Translations under genes and position numbers: made by a program | Assembly: GCA_021292105.1 (NCBI GenBank) | Contig: CM037862.1 | Coordinates: 34,561,770-34,625,769, forward strand | Origin: Anadara kagoshimensis | Lineage: Eukaryota; Mollusca; Bivalvia; Arcoida; Arcidae | Direction: 5' to 3' | Length of the DNA stretch: 64,000 bases | Shown here: piece after piece, positions 1 to 62,738 of the stretch | Numbering within the stretch: position 1 is the stretch's first letter | How the letters are laid out: every line of letters begins with the position of its first letter | The notes under the pieces: generated by a model | Told to the model about the DNA's origin: nothing | The model's input: only the letters and a program-made list of their open reading frames with translations | The model's database searches: none

Positions 1-87
1 TAATACATTACAACATTATTTATTGTATACATATGTATAACATTTGATTTTTGTAAAATGTGATATACAACATAGTCAAATTCAAAT

Positions 88-17473: not shown

Positions 17474-19284
17474 ATACTGGACATGTGATAACTGGTGATC
17501 TCAATATAATCGAGAACACTAAATTAAGATCTTTACATTCAAAAGGTCCTAAATATAGAGAAGCTCAGCTTTTTACTTGGGGACAGAATTTCAGTCTTGT
17601 CATGGATTCTGTTGAAGAGTACGCCAGACGTTGGGCTAAATTAAAAGATGTTTAGCTTGATACCTTATCCGACTGGATAAAGGTTGTGAGATCTTTCGTT
17701 AAAACTAGGATTGCCAAACTTAAAGGGTTTATGAGTACTAAACCGTCTTCAGTACTCAGGGATCCAGAAATCAAGACAATTCTAACAGACATACACAACA
17801 AATATGTTGTTGTCCCAGCTGATAAGGCTTCTTTATTCTCGTTTGTAAGAGCTTCTAACTTGAATGTCTTATTAAGGAGCTTGGTTTAGATAGTATATCA
17901 AATAACCCTGCATATACTAGAACTTATTTTACCAAAGATGAAGTTCTTTGCAATCATAGGGGAGTTCTCGAGTCTTTCGTTATCAATCTAAAAGAGGAAG
18001 ATCTTCCTTACTTGTATTGGATTCCTAAACTCCATAAAAATCCATACAAGGAATGATGTATAGCAGGCTCATCAAAATGTACTACTAAATCATTATCGGT
18101 AACTCTAACATAAACTTTGACAATCGTCAAAGATGGTCTTCAGTCTTATTCATCTGGAATCAACCAAATGTGGATTCTCAAAAATTCTAAAGAATTACTT
18201 GAACATCTTGCTTCTAATACTTTATCTCATGTAAAAAGTATAAAAACGTTTGATTTTTCTACCCTATACACCACTATCCCGCATTCTAAATTGAAAGAAC
18301 GTCTTAGATAAATTATTCACTTGTCTTTCTTTTACCAAAAAGGTAAGCCAAGATGCAAATATATGATTCTGGATATTTTGTCAAGCATCATACGGATTCC
18401 AAACAAAAATATACTTAAGATACCATCAACAAAATGTTAGAGTTTTTGATAGATAAATTATTTGTTGTGTTTGGTAATATAGTTTTTCAGCAAACAATCG
18501 GTATACCAATGGGTACAAACTGTGCACCATTGCTTGCTGATCTGTTTCTTTATTCTTATGAAGCAGAATTTATGCAGAACCTTGTTAAATCTGGAGAGAA
18601 AACTGTCGCGAAATCATTCAACTCAACAAACAGATATATAGATGACGTTCTGTCTCTTAACAATCCTAAATTTGGAGACTATGTAAATGTCATCTATCCT
18701 AGTGAGCTTGAAATAAAAGACACGACTGATTCCACAAGTTCTGCTTCATATTTAGACTTATACCTGATTTATGACACACACGAAAGGCTACATTTGAAAC
18801 TTAATGACAAACGTGATGACTTCAATTTTTCTATTGTCAACTTTCCTTTTTTATGCAGCAATATAGCAGCTTCTCCTGCTTATTGTGTATTTGTTTCCCA
18901 ATTAATACGCCATGGTAGAGCTTGTTCCCACTACGGGGGCTTTGTACAACGAAGTAGGCTGCTTGCAAATAAATTGTTGACTCAGGGATATTGCAAGCCT
19001 AGGCTAATCAATGCCCTCAAAAAGTTTTATGGCCGTCATCACAGTATTGTTGATAAGTTTGATGAAACTGTGTCCAGGATTGCCCTGGATATATTTGACG
19101 CCTCATAGTTCCATGTTCCTTTCACACAATATCGATTACACACGTGGCGGGTGTAGCTAGCTAAACAAGAGGCGCTTACCTTTCCGAATCACTTTTCTGG
19201 AGGAAGTTCACGTGTCTAGCCTAACTTGTCAGTTCCAAAGTTTTTACTTTGCTTCGACATGGATTAGTATGTTTGTTTTTGATT
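17474..19284 (+). mobile_element. 5'-truncated, inactive Penelope-like retroelement
   Basis: Decays from a reverse-transcriptase ORF. The surviving reading begins GHVITGDLNII and KGPKYRE, then VPADKAS. After a frameshift it continues with LYWIPKLHKNPYK and FDFSTLYTTIPHSKL (motif A), then GIPMGTNCAPLLADLFLY (motif B, about 18501-18554) and RYIDDVLSLNN (motif C, catalytic YIDD). It ends with SASYLDLYL and KKFYGRHH. The intact tail frame is 18434-19108. Lesions: in-frame TAG at 17653-17655, a frameshift near 17860-17890, and further stops between about 18050 and 18430. No GIY-YIG endonuclease is visible downstream; if the family has one upstream, it is lost with the 5' truncation. The roughly 175-bp 3' tail includes CACACGTGGCGGGTGTAGCT and GGAAGTTCACGTGTCTAGC. 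A 16-bp candidate target duplication flanks it. Assignment to Penelope-like elements rests on RT motifs, not on an alignment. Confidence 0.85.
18434..19108 (+). pseudogene. Reverse transcriptase C-terminal half of the Penelope-like element
   Basis: Longest surviving open frame of the element, about 224 codons, starting mid-domain. It contains the RT fingers/palm motif GIPMGTNCAPLL, the catalytic YIDD box and the thumb-proximal VNFPFLCSN and SQLIRHGRACS stretches, closing at FYGRHH...DIFDAS. The apparent ATG start is internal to the domain, so it is not a real gene start. Upstream parts of the same protein lie in other frames at 17475-18310, separated by stops. Not functional as it stands. Confidence 0.85.
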
Positions 19285-40455: not shown

Positions 40456-41784
40456 ATGTCCGTTGTAAATGCAGACATGGGAGACAATAGTCACAAAGTT
40501 GGTACCCAGAACGTAAGTAGATCTATGTTCAAGATATTTTGTTGTTCGAAAGAGGTGTTTTGGTTTAGCAACTCTACATGTCAAGTAAAGGCAAGTGAAA
40601 GGGCTTAATTATGCAATTTATTTTAGATACACTTTAAAGTTATATTTTAACAAAACAAAATGGCCGACAAACCTGACTTAAGTGAAAAATTTCAAAAAAA
40701 TACATAGACACTAAATGCTAATTAAGTGTTGGACTAATGATTGATCAGTATGTCTAAAAGTATGCGTTACTAGCCTTTAATATCGTTGTTAATAGATGAC
40801 ACTTTTCATATATCACTAAGTTAAGTGTTTACTTCATTAATTTACTTTGTTAAGGTTTCATATACTTACAATTTTCCTACCATATCACTCAATCAAATAA
40901 ATTCATTGGAAATCAAGACACACTTTCCCTTCTGGGCTACCTGGCCTCGTCTCTGCTAGAAAATTTACTTTTTCGCTTGTTAGTCAGTCTGAATGGTTCT
41001 TTCACGCGTCATGGGTACAGTGACACCGTGAGGGCATCGTTTTATAAAGTCTTTTCCGAAGGAGTTGCGACTTTCATTCGCTAAATGACGAGTATTAGGC
41101 GAAAGAACAGTCACTGCCTGTTTTCAAATATTGGTCAGAACCGGCTAGGGTTCGATCATAACCTGCCACATACATATTTTAGAGAATGTCTGCATTTTGA
41201 TGTTTTTCATTGATTGTTTCTTTGGTATTTCTCAAATGTTGGAAGTTTTTTTTAAAAATGTTTATTTTGAGTCTTGCTGTATGTTTCAATTGAGCCACTC
41301 ATTACGACTTGGCCGATATGAATTCCGAGTTCTACCGAAGTTTGTCGAATGCTTATTGCAATTGTTTTGGTTGACATGTGCCTGTTGGGATATTTTCATT
41401 ATAATTATTTTTAAACTTTTATCTTTATATTCAAAGGCAAGTCAAGAAGGAACAGTAAAGACACTGTACTCCAAAAAGAAAACGGTAGCCGAAGGTCTGT
41501 TAGATGTCGGGCTGATAATGGCTAACGCCACACAGTTGAAATCCCTTCTATCAGTCGGGGATGCACATAAGTTCTTCTACGTTCTGCTGGTGATTATATC
41601 CCTGTCGATTGTACTCCAAGTTGCCATAGGAATATTGCTGTTGTATCTAGGAGCAACGGAAGGAAAGCGTGAGACGGAAGAGAAGTCAGAGAAGATGAAC
41701 AATGCTACCCTGCTTCTTATATTTATAGTGACTCTTCTCAATGTATTTATAACAGCTTTTGGTATTGAACTTAGTTCTGGATGA
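40456..41784 (+). CDS. Ninjurin family protein, two exons, 134 aa
   Basis: Exon 1 (40456-40512) encodes MSVVNADMGDNSHKVGTQN and ends at donor GTAAGT. Exon 2 (41437-41784) follows acceptor TTCAAAG; the junction is phase 0. The protein shows the ninjurin signature: YSKKKTVAEGLLDVGLIMAN then ATQLKSLL (residues 30-57, the amphipathic-helix region before the membrane). A first membrane span follows (about 66-91, with SIVLQVAIGILLLYLG). A charged loop (GKRETEEKSEK) leads to a second span ending NVFITAFGIEL (121-131). Family members are about 140-150 aa, so this is full length with a short N-terminus. In vertebrates NINJ1 self-assembles in the plasma membrane and drives its rupture in lytic cell death; family members also act in adhesion. 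Which role applies here is not shown. Reading upstream of 41437 as coding would be wrong: it is intron. The intron holds a SINE. A further 5' exon is possible. Confidence 0.88.
40925..41185 (-). repeat. tRNA-derived SINE within the ninjurin intron
   Basis: Minus-strand copy related to 44655-44998: CACGCGTCATGGGTACAGTG, AGTCTTTTCCGAAGGAGTTG, GGCGAAAGAACAGTCACTGC, TTGGTCAGAACCGGCTAGGG and TTCGATCATAACC (box-B position). It is antisense to the gene. Confidence 0.75.
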
Positions 41785-46216: not shown

Positions 46217-49200
46217 ATGGCAGACCAATTCGGAGAGACAAGTATTTTACTTTGCTGGATTTTCTCAACACTGATAATCCAAGTAGTATCTGGAACAATA
46301 AAAGGTACCTGTCAAATATCGCCAAGTTCCAACACGTAATTATGAGTTGAAGATCAGTCCTTTAAGATGACTACATGTATGTCATATACCATTTTTTTAA
46401 AAATTTAATCATAAAATACATTTTAAAAATGGTATATGACAACTATATAAATTATCCCAGTTTCCACATCATTTCTCCATCAATAAGAATCATTCTTAAA
46501 GGCATTTTTGTTATTAGAACTAACCAATCTAGTGTATATAACGCTCTGTAGAATTTATTTCATTTCAGTATACCAAAAGTAATAGTACTAATAACATTAT
46601 TTTCTTATTCAAGTTATCTTGCTCAGTCTGTTTCATTCGCTTTTAGTTGCAAGGCTCACATGTAGCAGACACAGGTGGTCTACTCTTTTTCGAACTCTAC
46701 AGAGGTGTCATTAGCGTGCACTGAGACTCTGGACCTCGGTTTTGAGTCTAATCCGAAAGATTACTCTAAATATGAGCTATTTACACCTCTAGTATGAACA
46801 GGAGATGAAACCCATCTTAGAAAATTTCTAAGTCCCGAATGAGGTTCGAACCTACAACCCTTTACTTCGAAAGCGAGTGACCACTCGACCATATCCGCCC
46901 ATACTAGTAGTATATCATACGGTGCGCTGATTTAATGAAAGTCGATGCTTCTTTTCGGTCGTTTTATTAATATTATGCATAGAGACGAATTAATATAATA
47001 GAATGTTTATCCATTGTTTTCATATGCATCTTTATATGTGTGTAATTTATTGAATAATTATTGTTTTCACTTATGCTTTTGATTTTTTATAAAGTTACTA
47101 GTATGCATTCAAAAGTAGTACTTGAGTACTTCCGTTTATCTAAATTAAATTTTTTTTTTTAATTTTCATTTTTCACAGAGATCGAGTTGACAAGTGATTG
47201 TGGTAAAAATTACGACTATGAAATCTTTGATGTATCCGATACCGTATCTTATCACGTGATATTCTCCGGAAATGATCCTCCTAAACGTTGCAGACGAGGG
47301 TTCTATCGAGGATATGAAGGCAAGACATGTTTTGAGGTCATAGAATATGACATACAAGATTGTGGTATAACCCTACATTTCTCCGATGATGTTCTTAAGG
47401 TAAAATATATTCATTTATTGTTTGATTGATTTGGTTTTACGCCCGAGTCAATAATATTTTACTTATATCAAGACGTCACCAGTTGGAGGTGAAGTGGCGG
47501 GAATTTTACTTTTACAGTGACGTTAGGGCAATGCACAGGGCCTAGGAAGGGTTCTTTAGCGTGTCACGACAACATATGTAAAAAAAATGAAAGTGATTTT
47601 ACAGTACACTTCTCTAATAGTAATTCTTGTGCTAAAATTTGCAATAAAATTTGAAAATTGATATTTTAATTTTCAGACTTATGACTGTGAATTAAAACCA
47701 TCCCGTCGTATATGTACACATTATGGAGATATCGGACGTATAACCCTAGGAACAAAATACCCAAGGAAAGACTCTTATAAACATTCCAGTTTCAAGATCC
47801 TTGTAACTCCAGGAGAAGTTAAAGACGGTAAAATACTTATACATCTTAAATAATACAATTTTAGCTGCTTGTCACCCCAGGATAAAAAAGGGAGGGTTAC
47901 TTAAAATTTAGCTGGGTAGCTTGTAGATAAAAAGTATGCACTAGTAGTTAGAAATGACTAACTGTACAAAATATTCATCCAAGTAAATAAACGAAGCAAA
48001 ACAGACGCATATATCGCGTTCAAATGTATTTTAAAGTTCTCGACTTCGTACGCACAGTGGGTATAATACAAGTAATATGGTGTATATAGTCTTGTAATGA
48101 AGTGATAGAGTCTAAGTAAGGCTCCTATTGTCTGTGTCAGTGTAACTACAAATTGTGCAAAATATTTATACAAAAATTTAATTAACATGATTAAAGTTTG
48201 GTTACGTTAACTTAGTGGTACCTTATTGCAACAGAAGACCACTTTCCGTATCCGATACCACAACACAAAAATACCCTTGTACACAGGACAAATTTACGGC
48301 TTGTTCCACCATTTTTATTCAAAATCAAATTTTTGCCATGACTTTAGCTTGTTCAGATATTCTACGAGACGCCGCAAGGCGCCATTAAAGTATTTATACT
48401 TATATTTATTTTTGTTGTTGCTGGTATTTATTTGCATTCTTGAAGCCATGGTTCGTCTAATTTTTGACAGTGGAATTCACCGACAAATTAATAGCTTGCT
48501 GGTTAATATAACACATAATAAGTTGTAATTATGGATTCAGTTGTTCGAAGCTTGATTAGTTTAATCAACCATTAACACAGGTTTAAAAAGTCAATAAAAA
48601 TGAACACATCAGTTTTATAGTGATATGGTAAAGTTTGATGGAATTCTATTCGCTCTCAACATTTTCAACATCAATTTCACAACAGATCCTTAATTACACA
48701 AAATTCTAATTGTGACTAATCGATTGAATAAATTAATCAAGTGTCATATACCATTTTTTAAAAATTTAATCATAAAATACAATACAATTTTTGAACGTAT
48801 CTTATGATTAAATAAAAAAAATAGTATTTGACACAAGCTTTGAGCAACTGGCCCCTGATAAAGTAAATATTGCTAAGTTCCCTCTTAATATTTTCGTTTC
48901 AGATCAATCTCCGGCGATCGGTATCATTCTCCCAATTTTAATTATCGGTCTTATAATAGTGGTTGTGTTCACAGTTATTGCCTGCAAACGAAGACAACAA
49001 CGGAATCTGGGACTAACACGAAACCTAAACACCTCCACTACACAACAACCACCCCAGCAGACACACGTGGTAGTGTATCACCACGTGGTCCCACCACAAG
49101 GTACTGTATATATACATGTGATGCCACGGTTTCGCAATCATTTCGTAACTTTGATTTTCTTTAAAATAAATTTGACAAATTTGATACCATAATAATTTTG

Positions 49201-50299
49201 TTAATGTTTAAGGTATTCCGGGTTTAAAGGCGACATTTTGAAGATAAATAAAGCTTATGGCATTTGTTTTTAGTTTTGTTAAAAATGTTTGTTCTTAGTT
49301 CTAAAAAAGATTGTCAAAATTTGCTAAATTCAATTGAAGAAAATAGCCGTTATGAAATGAAATTGGAATATTGGTCAATATATTTCGCTTTGTGTTGGAT
49401 TGAACACCATCAAAAGCCAATGCCATCTTGTGTACCGAACTTTGTTTCCTTCTCATTTTTTTGTATCCTTTCTACTCGAAGAAGCCCCCCTTTTCGGTCT
49501 GCCCCCTTTCATATTTCTCTTATGCCAAAGCGACCTCAGTTTCAATTGATCAATCACAAGAACAGATCTGCAAAGAAGAAGATAGACTGATTGTCTGTCG
49601 ATCTCTATAATTGTTATATGACTGTAGAGAGTACTTTTGTAATGTCGTGTGAAGTAGAGGACCCATATGGGTACTTTTCGATGTCTGCTTGTTAGGTGCT
49701 TACAATTCAATCAGGATTCTTTCATTTGTGTCGAAGAGGTCAGTTCAGGATGAAAGAGGAAACCGGAGTGCTCGGAGAAAACCATCAACCTTTTGCCAGC
49801 GAACTGACAAACTTACCTATACTTGGATCTGTAGGATTCGAACTTTAATGTTAGCGGTTAAAGTCACTGTGATCCAGAAGCTAGCAAATTAAGGTAGTAA
49901 GTTAAACGGTGAATATTCAAATGGAATTGAGGTCAGTTGCTCCGGAAGAGCAATCCGACCTCCTGCCTTTTGCTAGCTACACCAGCCATGTGTGAAATCA
50001 AAATTTAGAATGAACTTTTTGATGTCAAATATATCGAGGATAATGTACATTTATTTATTGCAGGTGGCGGCGATTTTTCACCAAACCCTCAACAACCGCT
50101 GATGCCAGGTACAGGACAGCGAACCGAAATCCATCAATACTCACCCCACCCTCAACAGATGCCTTTACAAGGTTATGGACAACAGATGACCGGTGGTCAG
50201 TTTTATCCTCCTAATCCTCCGCATCAACACGGTGATGCACCTTCTTACGGTCCTCCACCGTCATACGAGGAGGCTAAAAACCTGATACCAAAAGACTGA
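46217..50299 (+). CDS. Single-pass membrane protein with six-cysteine ectodomain and PPxY tail, 297 aa (five exons)
   Basis: Exons: 46217-46304, 47179-47399, 47677-47827, 48903-49100 and 50064-50299. All introns are GT-AG, phases 1-0-1-1. Residues 1-26 form a signal peptide or anchor (ILLCWIFSTLIIQVVSG). The ectodomain (about 30-157) has cysteines at 37, 67, 80, 91, 107 and 116, with VSYHVIFSGNDPPKRC and FKILVTPGEVKD. One membrane helix (158-180, AIGIILPILIIGLIIVVVF) ends in CKRRQQR. The tail is rich in Pro, Gln, Tyr and His, and ends PPPSYEEAKNLIPKD; PPSY (284-287) is a WW-domain-binding motif. The start follows an in-frame stop, and the stop is TGA. AATAAA occurs at 51413. I do not recognise the ectodomain; a CUB-like fold cannot be excluded. 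It is paralogous to the minus-strand gene ending at 56620. The role (receptor, adhesion or trafficking adaptor) is inference from architecture. Confidence 0.85.
46381..46440. repeat. Hairpin foldback in intron 1 of the PPxY-tail gene
   Basis: GTCATATACCATTTTTTTAA pairs with TTAAAAATGGTATATGAC. Shares its left arm with the hairpin in intron 3 at 48741-48834 but is shorter by an internal deletion. Confidence 0.8.
46660..46905 (-). repeat. Second type of tRNA-derived SINE, minus strand, in intron 1
   Basis: Reverse reading gives GGCGGATATGGTCGAGTGGT + CACTCGC (box A, serine-tRNA-like) and GGGTTGTAGGTTCGAACCTC (box B). The body differs from the 44655 SINE. Its far end lies near the GCAAGGCTCACATGTAGCAG segment. 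Confidence 0.75.
47443..47580 (-). repeat. SINE 3' fragment in intron 2 of the PPxY-tail gene
   Basis: GTTTTACGCCCGAGTCAATA, TTTTACTTATATCAAGACGT and GGGTTCTTTAGCGTGTCACG are the reverse of the 3' half of the 44655-44998 SINE. Confidence 0.75.
48741..48834. repeat. Hairpin foldback in intron 3 of the PPxY-tail gene
   Basis: GTGTCATATACCATTTTTTA + AAAATTTAATCATA pairs with TATGATTAAATAAAAAAAAT + AGTATTTGACAC over about 33 bases, with a loop of about 28 bases. Longest copy of the GTCATATACC hairpin family in the window. Confidence 0.8.
49126..49370. repeat. Diverged foldback element (family D) in intron 4
   Basis: CACGGTTTCGCAATCATTTC + GTAAC at the left resembles the termini of 55831-56062 and 60523-60738. 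The right end near AAATAGCCGTTATGAAATG + AAATTGG is a plausible but decayed inverted partner. Open frames around 49264-49892 in this intron are not coding. Confidence 0.45.
49735..49860 (-). repeat. tRNA-derived SINE fragment, minus strand, in intron 4
   Basis: GAAAGAGGAAACCGGAGTGC + TCGGAGAAAACC, GCGAACTGACAAACTTACC and GTAGGATTCGAACTTTAA (box-B position) match the look of a bivalve SINE with a GGTTTTCTCCG-type body. The plus-strand SINE at 59460-59690 has a similar body. Confidence 0.65.
49866..50015 (-). repeat. Penelope-like 3'-end copy in intron 4
   Basis: AGTAAGTTAAACGGTGAATA, AATTGAGGTCAGTTGCTCCG, GAAGAGCAATCCGACCTCCT, GCTAGCTACACCAGCCATGT, GAAATCAAAATTTAGAATGA. Ends about 50 bp before exon 5. 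Confidence 0.8.
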
Positions 50300-51699
50300 A
50301 AATACCTGTGTAAACCCGTGTGCCGTAACTGGATGGATTACTTCCACAAAAATATATTATGTATGCAGCCTAACTGGTCCATTAATTTAGTCTTTTTATG
50401 GTTGTGATTGAGGTGCATAAATGTTTGAGGCAGTGTTGTTGACCAAGGTTGTGTGTTCTAACTCAAGTGCTACACGGAAAACTCATCAAGTGATTTTTAT
50501 CTGTTGTTTTTCCACAATTTGACTTTTTGGCTAAAAACTTAAACCTTTGGTAGGCGTGACACAAAAAGACTTCAATGCGGTTTATTGATATCAACGAATA
50601 ACAAATGTACAAATTTCTGTAACCGAATTTAAGTCAGCACACAGCTTAATTGGTTTTACTTTAGTTGGCCTTCGCATAGCTTAATTGATTTAACTTGTCA
50701 AGTATTCAGCGCAAAGTTGACTATAAACGTACAAGAGAAATAAGAAACGGGTTTCCCTTAATGTTTTCATTCCCAGTTTGAAATGTGCTTCAAGTCGAGG
50801 GCTTATTTTGTACCATCTGTAATATCAACCATTCACTAGACTTTTTTTAGTAGACACATACTCAGTGTATACACTTAAGCAAGGGTAGTTTCTAGCCACT
50901 ATCCGTTTAACTGTTAAAAAATGACAGATCGGACGCCATAGATGTTGGCGTCTTTGTCTTGGGATGCAAGGTACGTTTACTCGTACGTATTAAACGATTT
51001 TTATATGTAATTTAGTATAGATCCAATGGCATTTCGCAAATCAAAACTATTGTTTCAATGTACATTTAACTTAGATAGATTTTGTAATAATTTTACTTTA
51101 TCTCGCGATGCAAGGGGCGTCTAATTGTTAGTGATTGCAATCATATACACTACATTTGGAACATGCATTAAAGAGAACAAAGTGACCTACTAGATTATAA
51201 GAATCCATTGAGTATAAATGTCCAGATAAAACTTGTAATGGATTATTTTTTTCTTCCATTTTATGCAAACTTGTATTTACTGTCCGAATCACCGTGTTTG
51301 TGACAGTGATTAATGCTTTATAATAGTTAATTCTCATGGATTGAATAATGTTGGTATAGTTAACTTGTACCTACTGTATTTCCACAAATTCAGCGCACAT
51401 GAAAAATGCAAGAATAAAGTCGTATTTTCCAACAAACTCACAAAAAATTGTCAAAACTTTATACAAAATATACTGACCTATAATAGGAAAAAAATATTTT
51501 TCATTCATAAAAAGGTGAACTTAATTCTGTACATAGAGCAATTTTTGAACTTTTTAACAAAACAACAAATAAGACTATGTCAAAATTATCCCTTCTGTAC
51601 CTTCTTACTTGGAGCATCTTTAAACCTTATGTCATAATTGGAATATTCATGATGATCACACCTGAAAAAAAACCGAACAACAATGACCTCCTGACCCTA
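50300..51699. other. 3' UTR candidate of the PPxY-tail gene and spacer
   Basis: No coding exon was recognised. The first AATAAA after the stop codon is at 51413-51418, which would give a 3' UTR of about 1.1 kb if used. The 98-codon frame at 51341-51637 is AT-rich and lacks support. Confidence 0.4.
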
Positions 51700-51707
51700 A
51701 ATACCCC

Positions 51708-52202
51708 GGTTCATTCCCACTTAGCCAACATTTTGAAAATTTGTACCTATAGGTGAGATTTTAAATGTTGGCTGAGTGGGAATTGATGTTCGTTGTAGGA
51801 TTAGCAAAGACAATAGGTATTAATTACAGGTGAGGGTAAAGTCTGTTTCAGAAAATCAATAACAAAATTATAAAATCTGAATAAAAAAATTCCTTTAAAT
51901 TAGATTGGAATTTTTTTTACAGAATTACGAACTATATCAATAAAATTACTTGTTAGAAATTCAAACTTGATTTTGTGTACAAGGAGATGATATAAATTTA
52001 TCATTTTTCCACCATAAAAACTAAAATTTCCTAAAAAAATAATGCGGCAAAAGGAAAACTTAAATAAATTTTTATATTGCATTGTATGATATTTCAAGAG
52101 CCCATTAGAGAATTTTATCATGTCTATGGAGTTTCACGTTCTTTAAAAAGGTTTTTAAAAAGTGGATTATCAAATAATTCCTCTATTGAAGAACCATATT
52201 AG

Positions 52203-52248
<46 letters not shown>

Positions 52249-53024
52249 TGTTTAAGAAGTCATGAAGCTTTAGGTACATGAATTCAAGTTTTTAGAGAAA
52301 AATATTCACAACAAAGCTATTACATGTATAATATTTAAGAAAGAATGATAATAAATTTTATAATATTAATTTTTTTTTTTTTTTTTTTTTTTGAGAAAAA
52401 AACTCAGTTGTATTACATTTTAATTGTTTAACTTATTGAAACAGGCAAACATGCTTATTTCAATTAATGAAATAAAAACAATTTAAAATGTTTAAAACTT
52501 GCAATATTTATACAGAAATGAATTAAAGGTTTAATACATGCATGTATAATGTTTTTTGTTTATTGATATTTTTGTAAGATTATTAATTGTATTAAATTAT
52601 GTTACAACATGACAAATAACAAATAAAAACAGAGAACAGTCAGGTGTTGAGAAGTTGAGACTTGAGTAGCCAGTAAAAAAAAGATTTTTAAATATTTTTA
52701 AAACATTACAAATCTTAAAATATAATTGCCTAAATTGACCAAACCTCTACAGACACATATATTAAATTAAAATATTCAGCACCACAAAACATTTATTTAT
52801 TTTCAAATATTTATTTTTTATATACTTGATTTATTTATTTATTTAATTATTTTATTTTTTGTGACTTTTATGATATTCTATGTAAAATATTCAGCACCAC
52901 AAAACAATTTTGCTGAAAAAGACTATAGCAAAATCTTTCCAGGTGAAATCTTAAATGTTTATTTAACCATGTTGGCTAAGTGGGAATAGGAAATTTTAAA
53001 ATGTTGGCTAAGTGGGAAGACACC
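51708..53024. mobile_element. Non-autonomous hAT-like DNA transposon, 1317 bp
   Basis: Exact 8-bp direct repeats AATACCCC flank it (51700-51707 and 53025-53032). Terminal inverted repeats are GGTTCATTCCCACTTAGCCA + ACATTTTGAAAATTT (left) and, from the right end, GGTGTCTTCCCACTTAGCCA + ACATTTTAAAATTT. Extra subterminal copies of TGTTGGCTNAGTGGGAAT lie near 51764 and 52970. An 8-bp duplication with short inverted repeats is the hallmark of hAT insertions. The interior is very AT-rich, with (CT)n, poly(T) and a repeated AATATTCAGCACCACAAAAC (near 52772 and 52886). No transposase ORF. Confidence 0.88.
52207..52245 (+). repeat. (CT)n microsatellite inside the hAT-like element
   Basis: About nineteen CT units. 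A 22-base poly(T) follows at 52371-52392. Confidence 0.97.
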
Positions 53025-53032
53025 AATACCCC

Positions 53033-54133
53033 GATGTAATTTTGAATGAGGCATAAACTTGATCAAATTTCCAAAATTTTTGCAAAATTTCTCGATGTAC
53101 AGGAGAACTGAGCAAGAATGTTTTTGATTAAAAATATAATTTGGTTAGGTCACTACATTTTAAATGTATTTTATTGATAGTTTAATGGAAACATTTTTAA
53201 TTAAAAGAAATGAATAATAAAAATCAAGTGCACTCAATTTATGGAAATACAGTAGAAGTAACTGAAAATATGTATGTGCACAAACACGTCACAATCACTG
53301 TGGTTCGGGCAGTAGTTGCATAGACATCGGGACCATGTTTGTAAAGAGTTAACTTTGTATTTCAATGTTGTATGTAAAAATAAACAATATATATACTACA
53401 GGAAAGACTAAACCATATTCATTATTCACTATTTCTATCCTTTTAATTAAAAATAAAAGTTGGAATCGTAAGACATAGAAATTATTTAGTTTTGATTTAA
53501 TTAAGGATAAACAGGTAGAGTCGTTGGATATAGAAATTATTTAGTTTTGAAGTGAAAGTGAAAATTTTTACGAAGTGTGTCCACTTTTTGAAATAAAAGT
53601 TTAATAGAGACTACATTATACTTTCGGTCATGTCCTAATAAAATGATGTTATTAGACAAAATGGTAAAGTTTTTGTAAAATGTGGATAAAATCTCTGAAA
53701 AACGGAGTTTCGGTTATGTATAAGGATTACAGTGAGTTTGATTTTACTGTTTAGTTTTAGCCAAATTGAATATTAGAAACAAAGTACATGTAATTCATTC
53801 TAAAATGTCAATATTGATGGTTAAAACACATTAAAAATTTATAAATTTCTCAGACAACCGACTGTCATGTTTCTTTAAGATTACGTCATGTTCATCACAT
53901 GATGACGGTTGGCGATTGGCTCTTGATGCAATTCACGTGGTCATATAAGATCTGATATGAGATACGCGTGACATGAAACCTATCTCACATTAGCAGAAAT
54001 GAAAAAAAATGAATATACAATTAGACCTATTTCCATTTTCAGTTCACTTTAACATTAGTTAGTATGACTCATCATAACTATGCTGTGTTGTGTTTGTTTG
54101 TTTTTTTTCTCTCTCTTTTATATTTGTTATAGT
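53033..54133. other. Non-coding interval, nothing firmly recognised
   Basis: AGAAATTATTTAGTTTTGA occurs twice, 60 bp apart, near 53478 and 53538. A promoter-like cluster (GATTGGC, CACGTGG, CATATAAG) at 53905-53950 is noted but has no linked transcript. Confidence 0.35.
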
Positions 54134-54279
54134 CAAACAAAATTGACCTGTCCGCTTGACTTTTCATTGGGAATATTTATATAGATGGGTCCAACCAGTA
54201 CACAGGTAGTGTTAGGTTTCGCGGTTAATAAACAATGAACGTTTCCCATCAAGTTAACGAAATGAACACCCGTGTTCCC

Positions 54280-54352
<73 letters not shown>

Positions 54353-54425
54353 ATATATATAAATGTACTGTTCCATGATAAATATTTTAAGTTAAAGGTC
54401 AAGCGGACAGGTCAATGTTGTTTGT
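54134..54425. mobile_element. MITE, family A copy 2, with expanded (TA)n core
   Basis: Termini CAAACAAAATTGACCTGTCC + GCTTGAC and GGTCAAGCGGACAGGTCAAT + GTTGTTTG match the copy at 13251-13472. GTCCAACCAGTAC near the left end also resembles that copy. A long (TA)n tract at about 54280-54360 makes it larger. The 89-codon reverse frame rich in Tyr/Ile is a TA-tract artefact. Confidence 0.88.
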
Positions 54426-54986
54426 CTATATCATAAAATGTTTATTACATCGCTATTGAGTTTTAATATTATGATTTAATATTGTATTCGATCGTTGATA
54501 ATGTACTGGGGTGGGTGGCAGTAATGGGGTTGGGATGAAGGCGTTCCCTGGTTTTCTAGAAGATTCATTGTTTTGCACTGTTACAGTAATAAAGTACCAT
54601 TTGATATTATTTATGCATGTCAGTATAAGATTAAATAAACTTTTTAAAAATAATAAATTTTCCTTTTAGATGTGTACTTTTTAATTTGTAGCTTGCAAAA
54701 ATTAAATCCATAAATTAAAATAACACAAAACAACAAATGAAAGAAACAAAACATCCAATGAGTCCATCAACTATAAAACTTCCAGGATTAAACAAATAAT
54801 AAATTATTTGGCAATTTCAGGGTGTCCCAAAATATGTAACACTTTCAACTTTTCACCCTCCCCCCCCCCAAAAACAAAAAATAAAAAGTAAGCATCTAAG
54901 TGAAAGTGAAATTTTCACGAAACCATGTTTATGTTTAAAATTTTTGATATTAATAAATTTATAGAATTCCCTTTTATTCTTTTAAT
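54426..54986. other. Non-coding interval, nothing recognised
   Basis: Contains a short poly(C) run near 54860. No exon or repeat match. Confidence 0.4.
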
Positions 54987-55125
54987 TAAGAAATGACATT
55001 CTGATTATGGTATTTCAAGGGGTAATGAAAGATAGTGTGGCGAAGCCCTTCATTTTGAATTTGGCACGCGCCACACTATCTTTCATTACCCCTTGAAAAA
55101 CCATGAGCAGAAATGTCATTTCTTA
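54987..55125. repeat. Foldback element with about 60-bp arms
   Basis: TAAGAAATGACATTCTGATT, then TATTTCAAGGGGTAATGAAA and GATAGTGTGGCG, pair with CGCCACACTATCTTTCATTA, CCCCTTGAAAAACCATGAGC and AGAAATGTCATTTCTTA. The inner 30 bases pair almost perfectly around a short loop. Confidence 0.85.
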
Positions 55126-55830
55126 TATTTACAATAAATATTTTGTACCTTGGCGCTATTTTTTCCATATCTTCGCGTGTGAGTTTTTAGCCATGCGACA
55201 TCGGCGTATCTCACATGACCACGCGACCCCCTGTGTAGAACATGACGTAATATTGCGGGAAAATTGATATACATCAAGGGTAATGACCCCCATTGTCTTT
55301 CAATGGGAATTGAAATACAATTGCTTCTGTATGTTTCATCGAAGACAGGTGCAGGCATATTGTAAATATAAACATACCTTAAACATAAAAAATGAAAGTG
55401 TGACCTCATGTCCAGAGGTTTTGTTATTGTACTATTATGGAAACAAGGGTTGAGTAATGGTGTTTAACGTCCCAGTCAAGAATATTTCACTAATATTGAG
55501 ACGTTATTATAGAGAAAATGCTATCCTACTTATTTTATAACAAGTGCAGAAGTTAAAAAAAGTATTGAAAGTCCATTAACAGCATTGGCAGTATGTCATC
55601 ATACAGAAAAAATGCAGGTTGGACTTTCACAGTTAAAATATCAAAGGCCCCTATGTAAATCCATTAGGTCCCAGACCGCATACCTGGGGAAATTTGAACC
55701 CCTGCAGTGGTTAGCCTAGCCCATATCTGCAATATAATTAACATAATTAGACCTACCCCAGAACAACAAGCTGGAGATCGGCATAATATACCTGTACTGT
55801 GTAAATGACACAAAAATAAGCCATACTGAC
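55126..55830. other. Non-coding interval with SINE tail
   Basis: A minus-strand SINE 3' fragment lies at about 55452-55505 (GGTGTTTAACGTCCCAGTCA, AGAATATTTCACTAATATTG). A decayed tRNA-like head may follow near 55690-55735 (AATTTGAACCCCTGCAGTGG). No gene; the 97-codon frame at 55116-55409 is unsupported. Confidence 0.45.
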
Positions 55831-56062
55831 CCCGGTTTTACAATCATTCCTTAACTAAGATTTAAGCCATTTTTTGCAAGCTCTGCTTGGAACTGCGAAT
55901 AAATATTTTTGTAACAAAATGCAGTTGTCATAAGCTTGATATAATTTTCAAGATGACGCCTTAAATTTCAAATCTTGACAATTAACAAAATTATAAAGGT
56001 TTTTGATTTGCCAGATTTAAGTTTAGGAAAATCTTAAGTTAAGAAATGATTCTAAAAACGGG
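55831..56062. repeat. Foldback element, family D copy 1 (about 230 bp)
   Basis: CCCGGTTTTACAATCATTCC + TTAACTAAG at the left and TTAAGTTAAGAAATGATTCT + AAAAACGGG at the right are imperfect inverted repeats. A related copy is at 60523-60738. Confidence 0.75.
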
Positions 56063-56507
56063 CCTGGTCATTGCCATTAGCACGCTGCAAAGGTACATGT
56101 ATCAAGGCCTGTAACTTCTTAAAAACTGGTTGCCTCTCGATATCAATCTGTTGTAAGTATAACCACATTTCAATCACTTATGATAACTCAATCGTATTTA
56201 GCTTTAGCATATTTATAGCTTTGAAAACCATCGAGATTGGCATGGGAAATGAAATACAGATTGAAGCTGTAATGTGCCAAACAATCCTTCATTGGTCATC
56301 GCCAACATTGGAGCATACTATACTTTGCAGGGAAACAATCTTTTAAACTAGTTTCTTTTTTCTGTTTGCTGTATGCGACATTACAGATATTGTTTCTGTC
56401 GAACTATGCACATGATCCAATGAGTCCTTCTGCTTTTGGCTTTCGGTGCTATTGTTGTTTATCCTGTTGTTGCTGCTGTTGCTTTTTCTGTTAATGTCAC
56501 TGTTTCT
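56063..56507. other. 3' flank of the minus-strand paralog
   Basis: No repeat or exon was recognised. It probably contains the 3' UTR of the minus-strand gene, but no AATAAA is evident close to its stop codon. Confidence 0.35.
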
Positions 56508-56711
56508 GTTGGTGTTGTTACTGCTGCTGTTGTAGCCATTGTTGTTTTTGTTGTTTCTGTTGGTGTTGTTACTGTTGCTGTTGTAGCCATTGTTGTTTTT
56601 GTTGTTTCTGTTGGTGTTGTTACTGCTGCTGTTGTAGCCACTGTTGCTTTTGTTGTTGCTGTTGGTGTTGTTGCTGCTGCTGTTGTATTTTTTGTTGCTG
56701 TGCTACTTGAC
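56508..56711 (-). repeat. 51-bp minisatellite spanning the end of the Gln-tail gene
   Basis: Units start with GTTGGTGTTGTT (plus strand) at 56508, 56559, 56610 and 56661, exactly 51 bp (17 codons) apart. In the three lower units the base after GTTGTT makes a TTA (TAA stop on the minus strand). In the unit at 56661 the same codon is TTG (CAA, glutamine). The array therefore straddles the stop codon and continues into the 3' UTR. Confidence 0.9.
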
Positions 56712-58893
56712 TCATTGGATCTTTATATTGTGACACATACATGTTTGCGTCGTGTCCCGGTTGTGATATGTAACTAATTGTGTTCGGTTCTTGTTGTATG
56801 TAACTATTTGTAGTAGATTGGGAGATCGAACCCTGATATGACGTCGTCACAACTTGATTTGCATTTCTATTTCTGTTTCGCATCCTAACCAAAAATACCA
56901 GTGCCAATGTCACCAGACCAGCCAATCCAAAGATTAACGGCACAACCAACAGTGTATAGTCGAATGAACCTGAAACAAGAGCATGACGTAAGACGCAAAC
57001 AAAACTTATAAAAGTGACAGTTATTTTATTTGGGGCGTTTTATCATATATTTAAATATACTAAAATATTTAGTTTTTTAATATGCGATACTAATTTAAGC
57101 TACGAATCAATATCGCACCCAAATATCTCGCCTCTTCTCGAATTTATTTTAACATATTCATTATCTGTTAAGCTGTTTGAAAATTTTATTAGACATATAC
57201 ATGTGTGATGAAAAATTTCGTAATTACCATATATCCAAAGATTTTAATATTGTGATAAAAATAAAAAGTATGGTAAAACAAATATAACACGCAATAATAG
57301 CACTCGACTAAAGTCCTCTATCTCATAATAGAGTCTCGGACCGATATCGCATGTGATCTGGATTTTACCATTCTATCATAGGTGCTCAGGAAATGGATTT
57401 TAAACATTTAAAAAAATATAGCGTATCACATATATAAAAAGATAGTAAAAGTTGGTCACTTCAGATTTTTAAAATTTCAATCGGCTAGGGAATTCCCCTA
57501 CAAAAAATTATATAAATCAGATCGATCCGTTAAAAACCGCTCTCTATATGAAACATGCATAAATCATAGAGAAAAAAGAGTGCCATTCCATATTGAGGCA
57601 GCTTTGGAGAACGCTCTCGAAGTTCAATGTGATCTAAACATCTCAAATCGCCAGCTTACGTATTACATTACTTCCGGTTTCTTCTACCGTTCCATAAGAG
57701 CACGCATTGATATGAGTGAAATAATCTCGAGTAAGGTATAGTTCCTACTCTGCCAATGGTTGTAAGGTTTTGTAATTTACAAATCTATCCTCATACTAGT
57801 AATCTTGTCTGGGGCCGACATCCAGTAATTTTGTTAAAAATTTAAATTTAAAATTACCTTCTGCTTTTCCCCTCGTAAATTGGGGGGAAATTAAAGTTCT
57901 GAAATGCAGCAATCTGCATAATGGCATGCTTACAATAGCTTAGGATCCTAATCGCAAAGATGTTATATTCTGACAATATCTTAACATTTTGTTGGTAAGG
58001 ACAACTAGATTTAATTTGCTTATATATCACTTGATTTTAGACATTTTAGAGGTCAAATTGGAAAAAATTTAGTCATTTTCCCAAGGGGAAAGTACCTTTA
58101 TTTGGTAGTTACTTAGGCATACAAAATGACTGCATCCGACTTTTTCATTTATATTTTACTCCGTGTTTCAAACGGAGTCCGTGAGGTGACATGCGTGAAA
58201 AAAAAACCAAAAAACAAAAAACAAAAAAAACAAAAAAAACATTTTCATAATATCGAAAAAGTATTTTGTACATTGTATATTAGCAATAGTTACTTTGTAT
58301 TTTTGAAATTCTGGACTGGGGCCAAATATACGAAGTAACTTTTGCGAATATACGAAAAAATATTGCGAATATTCGAATAGCTATAGGAAATATACGAAAT
58401 AGTATTTTAAAATTTCCAAATACTATTTCGAAGATACGATTTTTAACATGTGTCACCTAATTTTATAACTGGTCCTGCAATTTTAAGACTTGTTATAAAC
58501 ATACCATCGTAAACTTCACCCAATGAAATCTCCAGTACAAAGCTAGAATAGTTGTATGATTTTGTACGCGGTTCTTTCGTGATCAATTGTATCCGCACCC
58601 GTTCCCCAACCTCTGAACACCTTTTCTTCAATGGTACGTTGTCACAGCTGTAATTCTGTGAAAGTGAAATAAAATATCAGGTTAAGTTGTAGCAATATGT
58701 AAATAAAAATGGTGTAGGTTACAGGTCAAGGTTATGAAATATCCACTGCGTATTTAAAGGTCAAGGTTATGTTACAATAAACTGCAAGACATACTTCACA
58801 TGGATAAAACATATCATTAATTTTACGTTAGGGTATGAATAACACCCGTTACCATTTATAACGAACCTGTATTGCATTAAAAAATAAATTTCT

Positions 58894-58938
<45 letters not shown>

Positions 58939-60453
58939 GTAACACTTCATTGCATGTGTATACCATATTAACATCCGTTTCCATTGGCTTTCATTTATTC
59001 ATGCCAACTTGCAAACTCCAGTAAGCAAAATCTCTTTCTCAATCTACGGTCTACCAGGGTCGATCACGATCCCGGCATAGCGATGAGAAGCCTTTCGATT
59101 TGAATGTTAGTGACTTAACCATTCGGGCAATCGCGGCCTGGTCACAAAAATGAACAACTGCATGTTAAATGTGGAGGGCTTATATGCCAACTTACCTTCG
59201 ATAAGTAGTTCAGTATAACATTACAATCATTAATGTTGAATTCTGTGACCATTACACAAACTAAGTTGTCCTCGTTATAAAAGCTGACGTCACAGCTATC
59301 AGGAGGATCGTCATCCCCGTATTTAACGTGATATGTGTTATCATCGCTAACACTAAACTCACGGCCATTAATGGAATAGCAATCATTAACAAAGTATATC
59401 GCTGAAAAAAAGAAATAATGGAAATATTGGAGTTCATAAAGTAGACTCTCTCTCTCTCTTCTCGGCCGGATGGTCTAAAGCGCACCAAAGCGGATCAAAG
59501 CATATCTCACCGGTTATATTCGAACCCCCTCGGGGCAGATCCTAGTGTTAAAACGTTTGTAAGTTCACTTGCCGAAGGTCGTTGTTTATCTCCTGGCATT
59601 CCGGTTTTCTCAATCATCCTAGAACTGACCGAAGTGTTAATGGAAGAATCGATCTTGACTTTTAAGATCCCAGTATGTCGGTCTTAAAAGAATTAAATAA
59701 TAATAACTATGAATAAAATAAGACGAATCTGTCCTTAACCAAGAGCCTTATTTTGTTGATGGGATATGATTAATTAGACTGACACGTGATTATCAATTCT
59801 ACATAACCTGGACATATTTCCGTCATTACCGATTATGTATATACCAAGTTATCATATAAATGAGTTATACAAAAACCGAGGGAATCTGATCTTTTTTCAC
59901 TAGTTTTAAATGTTTCTATTTTCACTTACATAACAAAGAATTTTTTGCCTTGCAATGAAAAATATGGAGTCTTGAGGTTGACAATGTACATTTGTATCCC
60001 TGATGTGGCCAAATTGGTAGAATATTTGTTTCGTAATTGTGAGGTTGAGGGTTTGATTCCTGTCCTGATTTATTATTCTAAGAGTGCAAAAAATAACTTT
60101 AATTCTTCCGTTAAAACCCTCAGCATTAAGAAACTGAAAACAAAAATTTATAAACCTTCAAATACTTTGTCATGATGAAGTGCGAAAAACTGAACATTTC
60201 CACATGCGCATTGTACATACACGCCACTGCAATTTCACTTTAAATTTAAACTTGTGTCGTATCGATGATATGTATAGTCTTATATTATTGCATGTACATG
60301 TAATCATATCTCAAAGTAAATAAATAATTAAATAAATAGATACATGTAAATAAATAGATAAATAAATAAAATGATGTAAATACCTGTACGGAAAAATAAG
60401 CCACACTCGACCACTAGTACCAAAGTTAACACAACATAAACAATGTTGAACAT
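56620..60453 (-). CDS. Single-pass membrane protein with six-cysteine ectodomain and Gln-rich tail, 258 aa (four exons)
   Basis: Exons on the minus strand: 60453-60384, 59401-59196, 58655-58505 and 56969-56620. All introns are GT-AG, phases 1-0-1. Residues 1-18 are a signal peptide (MFNIVYVVLTLVLVVECG). The ectodomain (about 24-146) has cysteines at 31, 60, 72, 83, 96 and 105, with NTYHVKYGDDDPPDSC and YSSFVLEISLGEV. One membrane helix (149-170, LLVVPLIFGLAGLVTLALVF) is followed by RMRNRNRN. The tail has Tyr-Gln/Ser motifs and ends in a glutamine tract (about 233-258). An in-frame TAA lies 9 nt upstream of the start. Cysteine spacing, the DPP-x-x-C segment, intron phases and a third exon of 151 nt match the plus-strand gene at 46217-50299, so the two are paralogs. 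The tail is unrelated and lacks the extra 3' exon and PPxY. Function unknown; a surface receptor or adhesion role is inference. Confidence 0.85.
57412..57738 (+). other. Orphan open reading frame without an ATG start, in intron 3 of the Gln-tail gene
   Basis: A 108-codon stretch is open on the plus strand, bounded by TAA at 57409 and TAG at 57736. The second half looks protein-like and is GC-richer than the flanks: REKRVPFHIEAALENALEVQ, CDLNISNRQLTYYITSGFFY, RSIRARIDMSEIISS. A possible acceptor (ATCGGCTAG before 57489) and a possible donor (GTAAGG or AAG|GTATAG near 57726-57733) would make it an internal exon. I do not recognise the family. It could be an exon of a nested gene, a fragment of a mobile-element protein or a retro-inserted pseudogene piece. 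Confidence 0.35.
57739..58442. other. Intron 3 remainder, nothing recognised
   Basis: AT-rich; an A-rich stretch near 58200-58240 and ATACGAAATA-type short repeats near 58320-58440. No other feature. Confidence 0.4.
58896..58936 (+). repeat. (GA)n microsatellite in intron 2 of the Gln-tail gene
   Basis: About twenty GA units. Confidence 0.97.
59053..59145 (-). repeat. tRNA-derived SINE head, minus strand
   Basis: Reverse reading: GGCCGCGATTGCCCGAATGG + TTAAGTCACTAACATTC (box A with anticodon arm) and GGGATCGTGATCGACCC (box-B region). Located in intron 2 of the Gln-tail gene. Not a functional tRNA: the arms are incomplete. Confidence 0.65.
59460..59690 (+). repeat. tRNA-derived SINE, plus strand, in intron 1 of the Gln-tail gene
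   Basis: CTCGGCCGGATGGTCTAAAG + CGC (box A), GGTTATATTCGAACCCCC (box B), then GTTCACTTGCCGAAGGTCGT, ATTCCGGTTTTCTCAATC, CTTAAAAGAATTAAATAATA-type tail. It lies immediately upstream of the gene's exon 2. Confidence 0.75.
59997..60075 (+). repeat. tRNA-like SINE head, plus strand, in intron 1 of the Gln-tail gene
   Basis: GATGTGGCCAAATTGGTAGA + ATATTTGTTTCGTAATTGTG (box A through anticodon arm) and GAGGGTTTGATTCCTGTC (box B). Mismatched acceptor stem, so a tRNA-derived repeat rather than a gene. Confidence 0.6.
60318..60372 (+). repeat. Imperfect (AAAT)n / TAGATA tract
   Basis: AAATAAATAATTAAATAAAT then AGATACATGTAAATAAATAG and further AAAT units. It lies 12 bp inside intron 1, next to the donor of exon 1 of the Gln-tail gene. 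Confidence 0.9.
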
Positions 60454-60984: not shown

Positions 60985-61515
60985 TATAAGCTATGCTTTT
61001 TACTTCAAACACTTAACCAAAATTTGTTAGAAAAATATGGTGAAAAGGGTAAAATTGTTGTATTTGGTGATTTAAATAGTCGCACTGCTAGTTTGGATGA
61101 TTTTATTTCAGCTGATGCGGTACATAACTCAGTCGACAAACACGTGTCATGTTTATTTACTTATGCTAATGACATTCCTTTACCTGGTCGCACCAATCCG
61201 GACAAAATTACTAATACATATGGATCGAAGCTTTTAAAATTATGCAAATCAACTGGTATTCGAATATTGAATGGAAGACATCCCAAAAAGATGGACAATG
61301 ACTTTACGTACAACGGCTCGCGTGGATACAGTGTGATTGATTACGTTTTAACAACGCCGGACATGTTTGAATGTATACGCGACTTCATTGTGTCAAATTT
61401 CAATCAATACAGTGACCACGCCCAGTGCACGCATGTATCGCTACCCGATTGGATAATCAACCAGCTAGTGACATTGACATTGACCGCAATCATTATAAAC
61501 CACGTGTCTCCATGA
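60985..61515 (+). pseudogene. LINE endonuclease domain, C-terminal half
   Basis: The frame shows KIVVFGDLNSRT (catalytic D and N of the endonuclease/exonuclease/phosphatase fold), FTYNGSRGYSVIDYVLTT (the S-x-I-D motif) and NQYSDHAQ (terminal SDH catalytic histidine). The N-terminal catalytic residues are missing because of the 5' truncation. The reading in this frame is real only to about 61440. Beyond it a one-base shift moves the protein into the frame of the next part, so residues read from 61460 to 61515 are spurious. Confidence 0.85.
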
Positions 61516-62738
61516 GATGGAAAGAAGAAAATAATCAGGAATACACGAATTCCTTATTACACCATATTGATGAACTTAATGATTTTATCAATAAAGCAGA
61601 TTTTTCTGATCAATATAACACAGACATAAGTGTCAATAACTTTAATGAAATTTTAAAAAGTGCATTTAGACCATATTGTGATATATACAAGCCGAATTCA
61701 AGGGAACCGGGGTATAAATCTGATACACGTAAACACATCACTGATGACAAACCATGGTTTAACAAACACTGCAAAAGTGCACATCACAAATACTTACATT
61801 CACTCTCGGAATTCAACAAAAATAAAAATAAATCAACTCACGAACAATTACTTAGGGACAAAAGGGAATATAAATTATTGGAAAATAAACTTAAGCGTAC
61901 TTACTTGAAACAAGAAGGAAACATGCTATCCAGTCTACGTATACATAATCCGAAAAAGTTTTTCTCTATATTTTCACGACCAAAAATGCGGGCTAATCAA
62001 ATTTCATTGGATGAATTCGAAAAACATTTCAGCGACCTTTTCAATAACAACACATCTACAGACCGTAAACATAGTGACCCAGGATTAGATTTTTTACCAG
62101 ACTTCGAGGAACTGGATAACCCTATAACACCAGCAGAAATAGAAAAATGTATTAAATCATTAAAGAGGGGGAAAAGCTGTGGGGAAGATGAAATTTTAAA
62201 TGAATTTTTTATTGAATCTAAGTCCATTTTATTACCTTATTTAACTTTTATTTTTAACAATATATTTGATTCTGGTATATTCCCATCAGCATGGTCTTCA
62301 GTCGTAATCGTACCTATATTTAAAAAAGGTCAACAGAATGATCCTAATAATTATCGGGGTATTAGTCTAATTAGTCATTTTTGTAAGCTTTTTACTAGTA
62401 TTCTTAATAATCGTCTGCTAGCATGGGCAGATAATTATGATATACTGACGGATGCACAGTTTGGTTTCCGTCCAGGTTTGGGTACACGTGATGCAATTTT
62501 TGCACTTCACTCCATCATTACTAATTCATTGTTAAACAAAAATAGGTTGTACTGTTGCTTTATAGATTTTTGTCGTGCATTTGATTCTATTAATAGACCA
62601 TATTTATTTTACAAAATTTCGAAACTTGGTATCAAAGGCAAACTATTATCGCTTATAAAATCAATGTATAACAATGTTAAATCTTGTGTTACTGTAGACG
62701 GTTTTTATTCACAACATTTTAGAAACAATATTGGTTAA
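61425..62738 (+). pseudogene. LINE linker and N-terminal half of reverse transcriptase
   Basis: The true reading starts within about 61440 (RLDNQPASD...) after the frameshift; the apparent start codon is not biological. A linker of about 200 residues leads into KSLKRGKSCGEDEILNEFF and VVIVPIFKKGQQNDPNNYRG + ISLIS (RT0-RT1 region). Then come DAQFGFRPGLGTRDA (RT2a) and CCFIDFCRAFDSINRPYLF (catalytic motif A, F-x-D). The frame is cut by TAA at 62736-62738, immediately before MQGEVISPILFSLY. Family members carry a sense codon there, so this is a nonsense mutation. Confidence 0.88.

Follow-up and report, generated by a model that had tools for sequence, protein, structure and literature searches.

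Background

Named domains are missing from many molluscan membrane proteins, and the locus examined here raises the question of what kind of proteins two such genes encode and whether they stand alone in their genome. The stretch analyzed (the window, 64,000 nucleotides) corresponds to C6:34561770-34625769 in the 1.115-Gb genome of Anadara kagoshimensis (36 contigs) and has a GC content of 32%. An earlier note, made from the letters alone, had described two convergent genes in it, called here gene A (plus strand) and gene B (minus strand), as a local pair of paralogous type I membrane proteins with six-cysteine ectodomains and unrelated tails. In our assessment the two genes probably belong to a large multigene family of type I (single-pass) surface receptors or adaptors, for which our domain and structure searches gave no match, and whose function we infer.

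Structure of genes A and B

Rebuilt from its coordinates, gene A has five exons encoding 297 amino acids, with intron phases 1-0-1-1, and gene B has four exons encoding 258 amino acids, with phases 1-0-1. Both are open to the stop codon, and all seven introns (7/7) are bounded by GT-AG. Hydropathy analysis gives both proteins a hydrophobic N-terminus, one strong helix (windows 154-185 in A and 144-173 in B), basic residues after the helix, and a low-complexity tail.

In gene A, exon 1 (46217..46304) encodes the signal peptide MADQFGETSILLCWIFSTLIIQVVSGTIK predicted from hydropathy and ends in phase 1; an in-frame TAA lies 5' of it, and the exon is also kept in a second genome copy of the locus, described below. 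Exon 2 (47179..47399, phase 1 to 0), whose relatives match elsewhere in the genome, carries ectodomain cysteines 1-4, and exon 3 (47677..47827, 151 nucleotides, phase 0 to 1) carries cysteines 5-6. Exon 4 (48903..49100) holds the membrane helix, the basic stop-transfer sequence CKRRQQR and the start of the tail, while exon 5 (50064..50299) encodes the P/Q-rich tail with the terminal PPPSYEEAKNLIPKD and a single PPxY motif, in PPPSYEEA. Gene B follows the same plan on the minus strand: exon 1 (60384..60453) encodes the signal peptide, exon 2 (59196..59401) cysteines 1-4, and exon 3 (58505..58655), again of 151 nucleotides, cysteines 5-6 together with NxS sites at residues 93 and 127, which make two such sites in the ectodomain of B against none in A. 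Exon 4 (56620..56969) contains the membrane helix and a tail with three YxxQ motifs (YIQQ, YISQ, and YVSQ), a polyQ end, and the stop codon. All nine exons, with their splice sites, the phases 1-0-1, the 151-nucleotide third exon and the cysteine gaps, were reproduced exactly as the earlier note had given them.

The end of the B tail is made by a 51-bp minisatellite (56501..56687, minus strand) that extends past it, with the stop codon inside the repeat unit. Over window positions 56343-56722 on the same strand, both other frames are open too (119 and 87 amino acids), reading N-rich and T-rich instead of polyQ. An Rfam search at the gathering threshold and a tRNA search returned no match.

A shared ectodomain with unlike tails

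The ectodomains of A and B are 38% identical, align by BLASTP with an E of 4e-24 across 134 residues, and stand at z = 30 against 1000 shuffles; their cysteine gaps are 29/12/10/15/8 in A and 28/11/10/12/8 in B. The three introns common to both genes fall at alignment columns 32, 105, and 156 with equal phases, an agreement that can hardly be due to chance. The two are sister genes in an eight-row tree (98/96), and the A-B clade recurs with 92/90 in a 22-row exon-2 tree in which most remaining forks are unresolved. The view that they are paralogous type I membrane proteins of receptor-like layout is borne out. Apart from short dispersed repeats, their intron sequences have no similarity, which together with the 38% identity points to an old duplication. 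A search for further copies within the window gave only weak matches at chance level.

The tails have no detectable similarity (z = 1.0 against 1000 shuffles), as had been claimed, together with the helices, in the earlier description. For the helices that claim needs amending. Their sequence similarity is not significant (234 of 3000 segment-keeping shuffles reached the observed score) and the BLASTP alignment extends into the helix (P-LI-GL); on the basis of intron position and phase, the membrane-helix exons of A and B are homologous.

A large gene family with a six-cysteine scaffold

When exon 2 of gene B was used as a genome query, more matches appeared, some merely weak, among them C14:71478200 at an E of 5. 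Exon 2 of that C14 member in turn found 46 places at E ≤ 10 among 47 candidates scored, 29 of them at E ≤ 1e-3 with its own place counted, and B at an E of 2.6. Thirty-eight of the 46 places were fetched for reading; a query with another member matched 30 places, of which seven were new and lie outside these 38 exon-2 pieces. On reading, the domain was present in 36 of the 38 pieces and absent from L061 (C5) and L062 (C18). Four cysteines at fitting distances (the relaxed pattern) were found in 34/38 and the strict C3-x10-C4 spacing in 29/38. The motif of the splice scan occurred in 35 of the 36 pieces, 28 of which had a fitting acceptor and donor and seven of which lacked one of the two; it was missing from L038, which contains an in-frame stop.

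With A, B, and the second copies of both, the 36 pieces make 40 exon-2 copies, which form 22 clusters at 85% identity with long terminal branches (median 1.14 changes per column); groups occur on C6, C14, and C15. Within this family the sisters A and B are outlying members, because they are without the consensus W and without the loop before C3. Two exons at C15:31.75-31.79 Mb (L039 and L043) are identical or nearly so in protein sequence to the copies L040, L042, L044, and L065 at C6:33.25-33.36 Mb, which may be due to a recent transposition or to an assembly piece placed wrongly. A literature search turned up no such family, which is weak evidence of its absence, and in prokaryote and virus collections none of the pattern matches (342 viral and 101 genome) was confirmed.

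The remainder of the protein was sought in 11 stretches of 3.5-3.9 kb downstream of other members, which were read for exon 3 and the membrane exon. Each was found in six, exon 3 in L071-L076 and the membrane exon in L071, L074-L077, and L081. In all six membrane exons read besides those of A and B, a phase-1 acceptor precedes the helix. Exon 3 measures 148-160 nucleotides and ends in phase 1 at GTAAGT in five of six cases, the end of the sixth (L075) being unsure. All eight ectodomains (A, B, and six others) have exactly six cysteines, in the pattern C-(24..29)-C-(11..19)-C-10-C-(12..19)-C-(7..9)-C, with exon phases 1-0-1 and one helix. A profile of the six other ectodomains detected A (best domain 1.1e-14) and B (4.3e-15) in a two-sequence search, and the consensus reads VxxGxDCxxxYxxxxVNxxxxYxLVWxxxxxPxxCxFxFxxxGxDxxDxYKVCVxVxxxxIxDCNVxLxYYxGxxxxPxxTYSCxxxPxKICxExGQxxxIELxTKxxxxxxYxxSxFxLxVTAxKxYD.

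A second copy of the locus

The whole A/B locus is repeated at C6:32.832-32.846 Mb. There, none of the nine exons or of their splice sites is disrupted (A', 297 amino acids; B', 255 amino acids), and the sole indel in the B ectodomain between the copies keeps the frame. Block identity ranges from 76 to 98% and mostly exceeds 85%. Paired family members at 32.39/34.16, 33.39/35.07, 33.42/35.09, and 33.44/35.11 Mb extend the duplicated pattern.

The explanation we favor, and hold to be rather probable, is that the pair 1.77 Mb away is the other haplotype retained in the assembly and that many of the C6 pairs are alleles, in which case the true gene number would be nearer the 22 clusters. It is consistent with the collinearity of the two copies along the 90 kb fetched, at an offset of 1.774-1.780 Mb with gaps and few off-diagonal repeats, and with insertions present in one copy only. 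Likewise, the two blocks adjoin, since the copy of a 33.80-Mb piece lies at 32.03 Mb, and a random control piece of C6 at 40.0 Mb is matched 2.3 Mb away by a nearly full-length inverted copy (96%), with further copies of 83-88% nearby. Against it, no second full copy of a control piece of C3 was found among the 40 of 8811 candidates scored, and a control piece of C10 recurs in full length at 97% identity, 29 kb away in a region of local repeats (40 of 1220 candidates scored), so that near-copies arise locally too. The divergence of the introns between the copies (4-6%) also seems high for alleles. Retained haplotypes and a real segmental duplication on C6 would both fit, and we lean towards haplotypes.

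The two copies also bear on the earlier proposal of rapid tail divergence, which holds between A and B. Between the genome copies, B and B' differ at 3/143 residues in signal peptide and ectodomain and at 8/89 in helix and tail (p = 0.024). The corresponding figures for A and A' are 2/154 and 9/143, five of these nine changes falling within the last six residues, apparently as one event; the very end of the A tail is thus apparently labile. The last exon of A in the second copy (C6:32836597-32836832) differs from A in the final six residues (RLKILV against NLIPKD). Without these six residues the contrast vanishes for A alone (4/137 vs. 2/154, p = 0.43), and the pooled contrast of tail against ectodomain (12/226 vs. 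5/297, p = 0.025) is driven by B; with them it becomes 17/232 vs. 5/297 (p = 0.0016), inflated by the single end-of-tail event in A.

The ratio of nonsynonymous to synonymous substitution rates (dN/dS) in B is 0.107 for signal peptide and ectodomain and 1.17 for helix and tail up to residue 232. In A it is 0.54 for signal peptide and ectodomain, from just five codon differences, and for helix and tail without the last six residues dN is 0.013 and dS 0.096. The A-A' differences number 4, 3, and 12 at codon positions 1, 2, and 3 (last seven codons excluded). By these ratios and the residue-change contrasts, the A tail looks constrained and the B tail relaxed, so that between the copies rapid divergence applies to the tail of B and not to that of A.

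Tails and proposed function

A PPxY motif is absent from the tail of B; a missed exon carrying one was considered and rejected, as the two minus-strand PPxY strings at 50-61 kb lie in short frames without coding sign. One C14 member (L071) combines PTAP with PPxY (PTAPPSY). The tail of another, L077, contains a run of SIDNNQ hexapeptide repeats.

In the mechanism that we propose, each member would consist of a signal peptide, a six-cysteine ectodomain of ~120-130 residues on two exons (1-0-1), a helix, and a short unstructured tail, the six cysteines presumably forming three disulfides. Members would duplicate locally and by megabase blocks. What they retain is the ectodomain scaffold; its sequence differs from one member to another, and so do the tails. 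At the cell surface, the predicted location, the ectodomain would bind a ligand outside the cell or a partner within its own membrane and the tail would decide the outcome, one ectodomain scaffold most likely being wired to different cytoplasmic partners. The tails of A and of the C14 member with PTAP and PPxY could recruit WW-domain NEDD4-type ubiquitin ligases or the endosomal sorting complexes required for transport (ESCRT) and so direct the complex to endocytosis; B would have tyrosine motifs in place of PPxY. By analogy, A and this C14 member may work like PPxY-bearing recruiters of NEDD4 ligases such as CYYR1, which PMC11399591 describes as binding WWP1 through PPxY and sending it to lysosomal degradation.

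Several observations weigh against this reading. No exon 3 was found in 5 of the 11 downstream stretches, and the six-cysteine count is partly selected, because exon 3 was picked among frames with paired cysteines. The single PPxY in the A tail is within chance (p = 0.16), as are the YxxQ motifs of B when the whole tail is considered (p = 0.16; 0.011 for the part before polyQ). PPxY occurs in only two of the eight tails read (A and L071), those of the other members perhaps being incomplete, as they were read without later exons. Moreover, the conservation of exons between the copies of the locus exceeds that of introns only slightly (A, p = 0.055; B, p = 0.18), which is modest evidence of selection and too weak as proof.

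A different function, immune or self/non-self recognition, would also account for diversified outer domains, divergent signaling tails, and local expansion. It agrees with the long end branches of the 22 clusters and the groups on C6, C14, and C15, and is opposed by the near identity of signal peptide and ectodomain between the copies (5/297 residues changed); we consider it possible at best. Equally tentative is the broader idea of a large and so far uncurated family of recognition receptors with a single membrane pass that evolves fast, has dozens of genes mainly on one chromosome and a new six-cysteine fold, and serves immunity or self/non-self discrimination in a bivalve lineage.

Comparison with known domains

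The earlier note had recognized no named domain, and our searches agree. Pfam and PDB sequences were searched with profiles, and CUB and RNase A were aligned by hhalign with column-shuffle controls. A Pfam scan of 21 members gave no meaningful match (best E 0.013, DUF4809), and against PDB sequences one of the larger family profiles found nothing up to an E of 10 and another scaffoldin at best (E 1.1). Other names appeared below threshold only (DUF3377, 0.027; zinc-finger chains, E 0.32 for B).

Membership in the Shisa-like (STMC6) transmembrane adaptors, which regulate the trafficking of other receptors, is very unlikely. The layout is the same, in that Shisa, CYYR1, WBP1, VOPP1, and TMEM92 have a signal peptide, a six-cysteine lumenal domain, one helix and in some cases a PPxY tail, as found here in A and L071; PMC5578492 sets Comm, PRRG4, Shisa, and CYYR side by side. 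The six cysteines of STMC6 proteins, according to the same paper, mostly follow the order C*C*CC*CC, whereas adjacent cysteines occur in none of our eight ectodomains (0/8), and this order rules membership out. The ectodomain is also different in its ~120-130 amino acids spread over two exons, six of the eight tails read, some of them perhaps incomplete, are without PPxY, and no Shisa family appeared in Pfam up to an E of 10.

A diverged CUB domain, a fold that the earlier note had suggested for comparison, is just as improbable. In CUB receptors (neuropilin, cubilin) the extracellular disulfide domain is similarly long (110-residue bait), and beta-like alternation is visible by eye after C3 and in exon 3. 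The six cysteines are at other spacings, however, and the hhalign scores against eight CUB (PF00431) sequences, 11.97 with a two-row and 10.16 with an eight-row profile, were reached by 41 and 64 of 100 shuffles, respectively. As a positive control, one CUB aligned to four others with a probability of 99.15, and neither the Pfam nor the PDB searches listed CUB.

The RNase A superfamily (PF00074) was rejected, as the best PDB lead, which the two-row profile gave at an E of 0.06 as a partial alignment over exon 2 with a DC motif, dropped out of the matches listed for the larger profiles, hhalign scored below the shuffle mean, Pfam did not list it, and what we take to be the catalytic His and Lys positions were unmatched in the printed alignment, which does not span the whole domain.

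Neighboring elements

A frame encoding a Ninjurin (window 41149-41784, plus strand; PF04923, E 4.8e-30) lies near gene A, at a distance of a few kb. Immediately upstream of gene B, a non-long terminal repeat (non-LTR) retrotransposon with endonuclease and reverse transcriptase frames occupies window positions 60985-62738 (plus strand); it is missing from the 32.8-Mb copy, where window 60998-64466 corresponds to ~0.2 kb. Another reverse transcriptase frame (18419-19108, plus strand; weak RVT_1 match, E 0.013) is, by eye, presumably Penelope-like.

Implications

Beyond the local gene pair of the earlier note, which stands insofar as A and B are sister genes, the pair is not isolated: it belongs to a large family, and its locus occurs twice on the chromosome. 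The megabase-spaced paired copies are a warning that gene counts on chromosome C6 of this assembly may be doubled. With a profile of the ectodomain, annotators could spot the entire receptor family in one step, and a family whose tails differ on a common scaffold offers a direct test of re-wiring after duplication.

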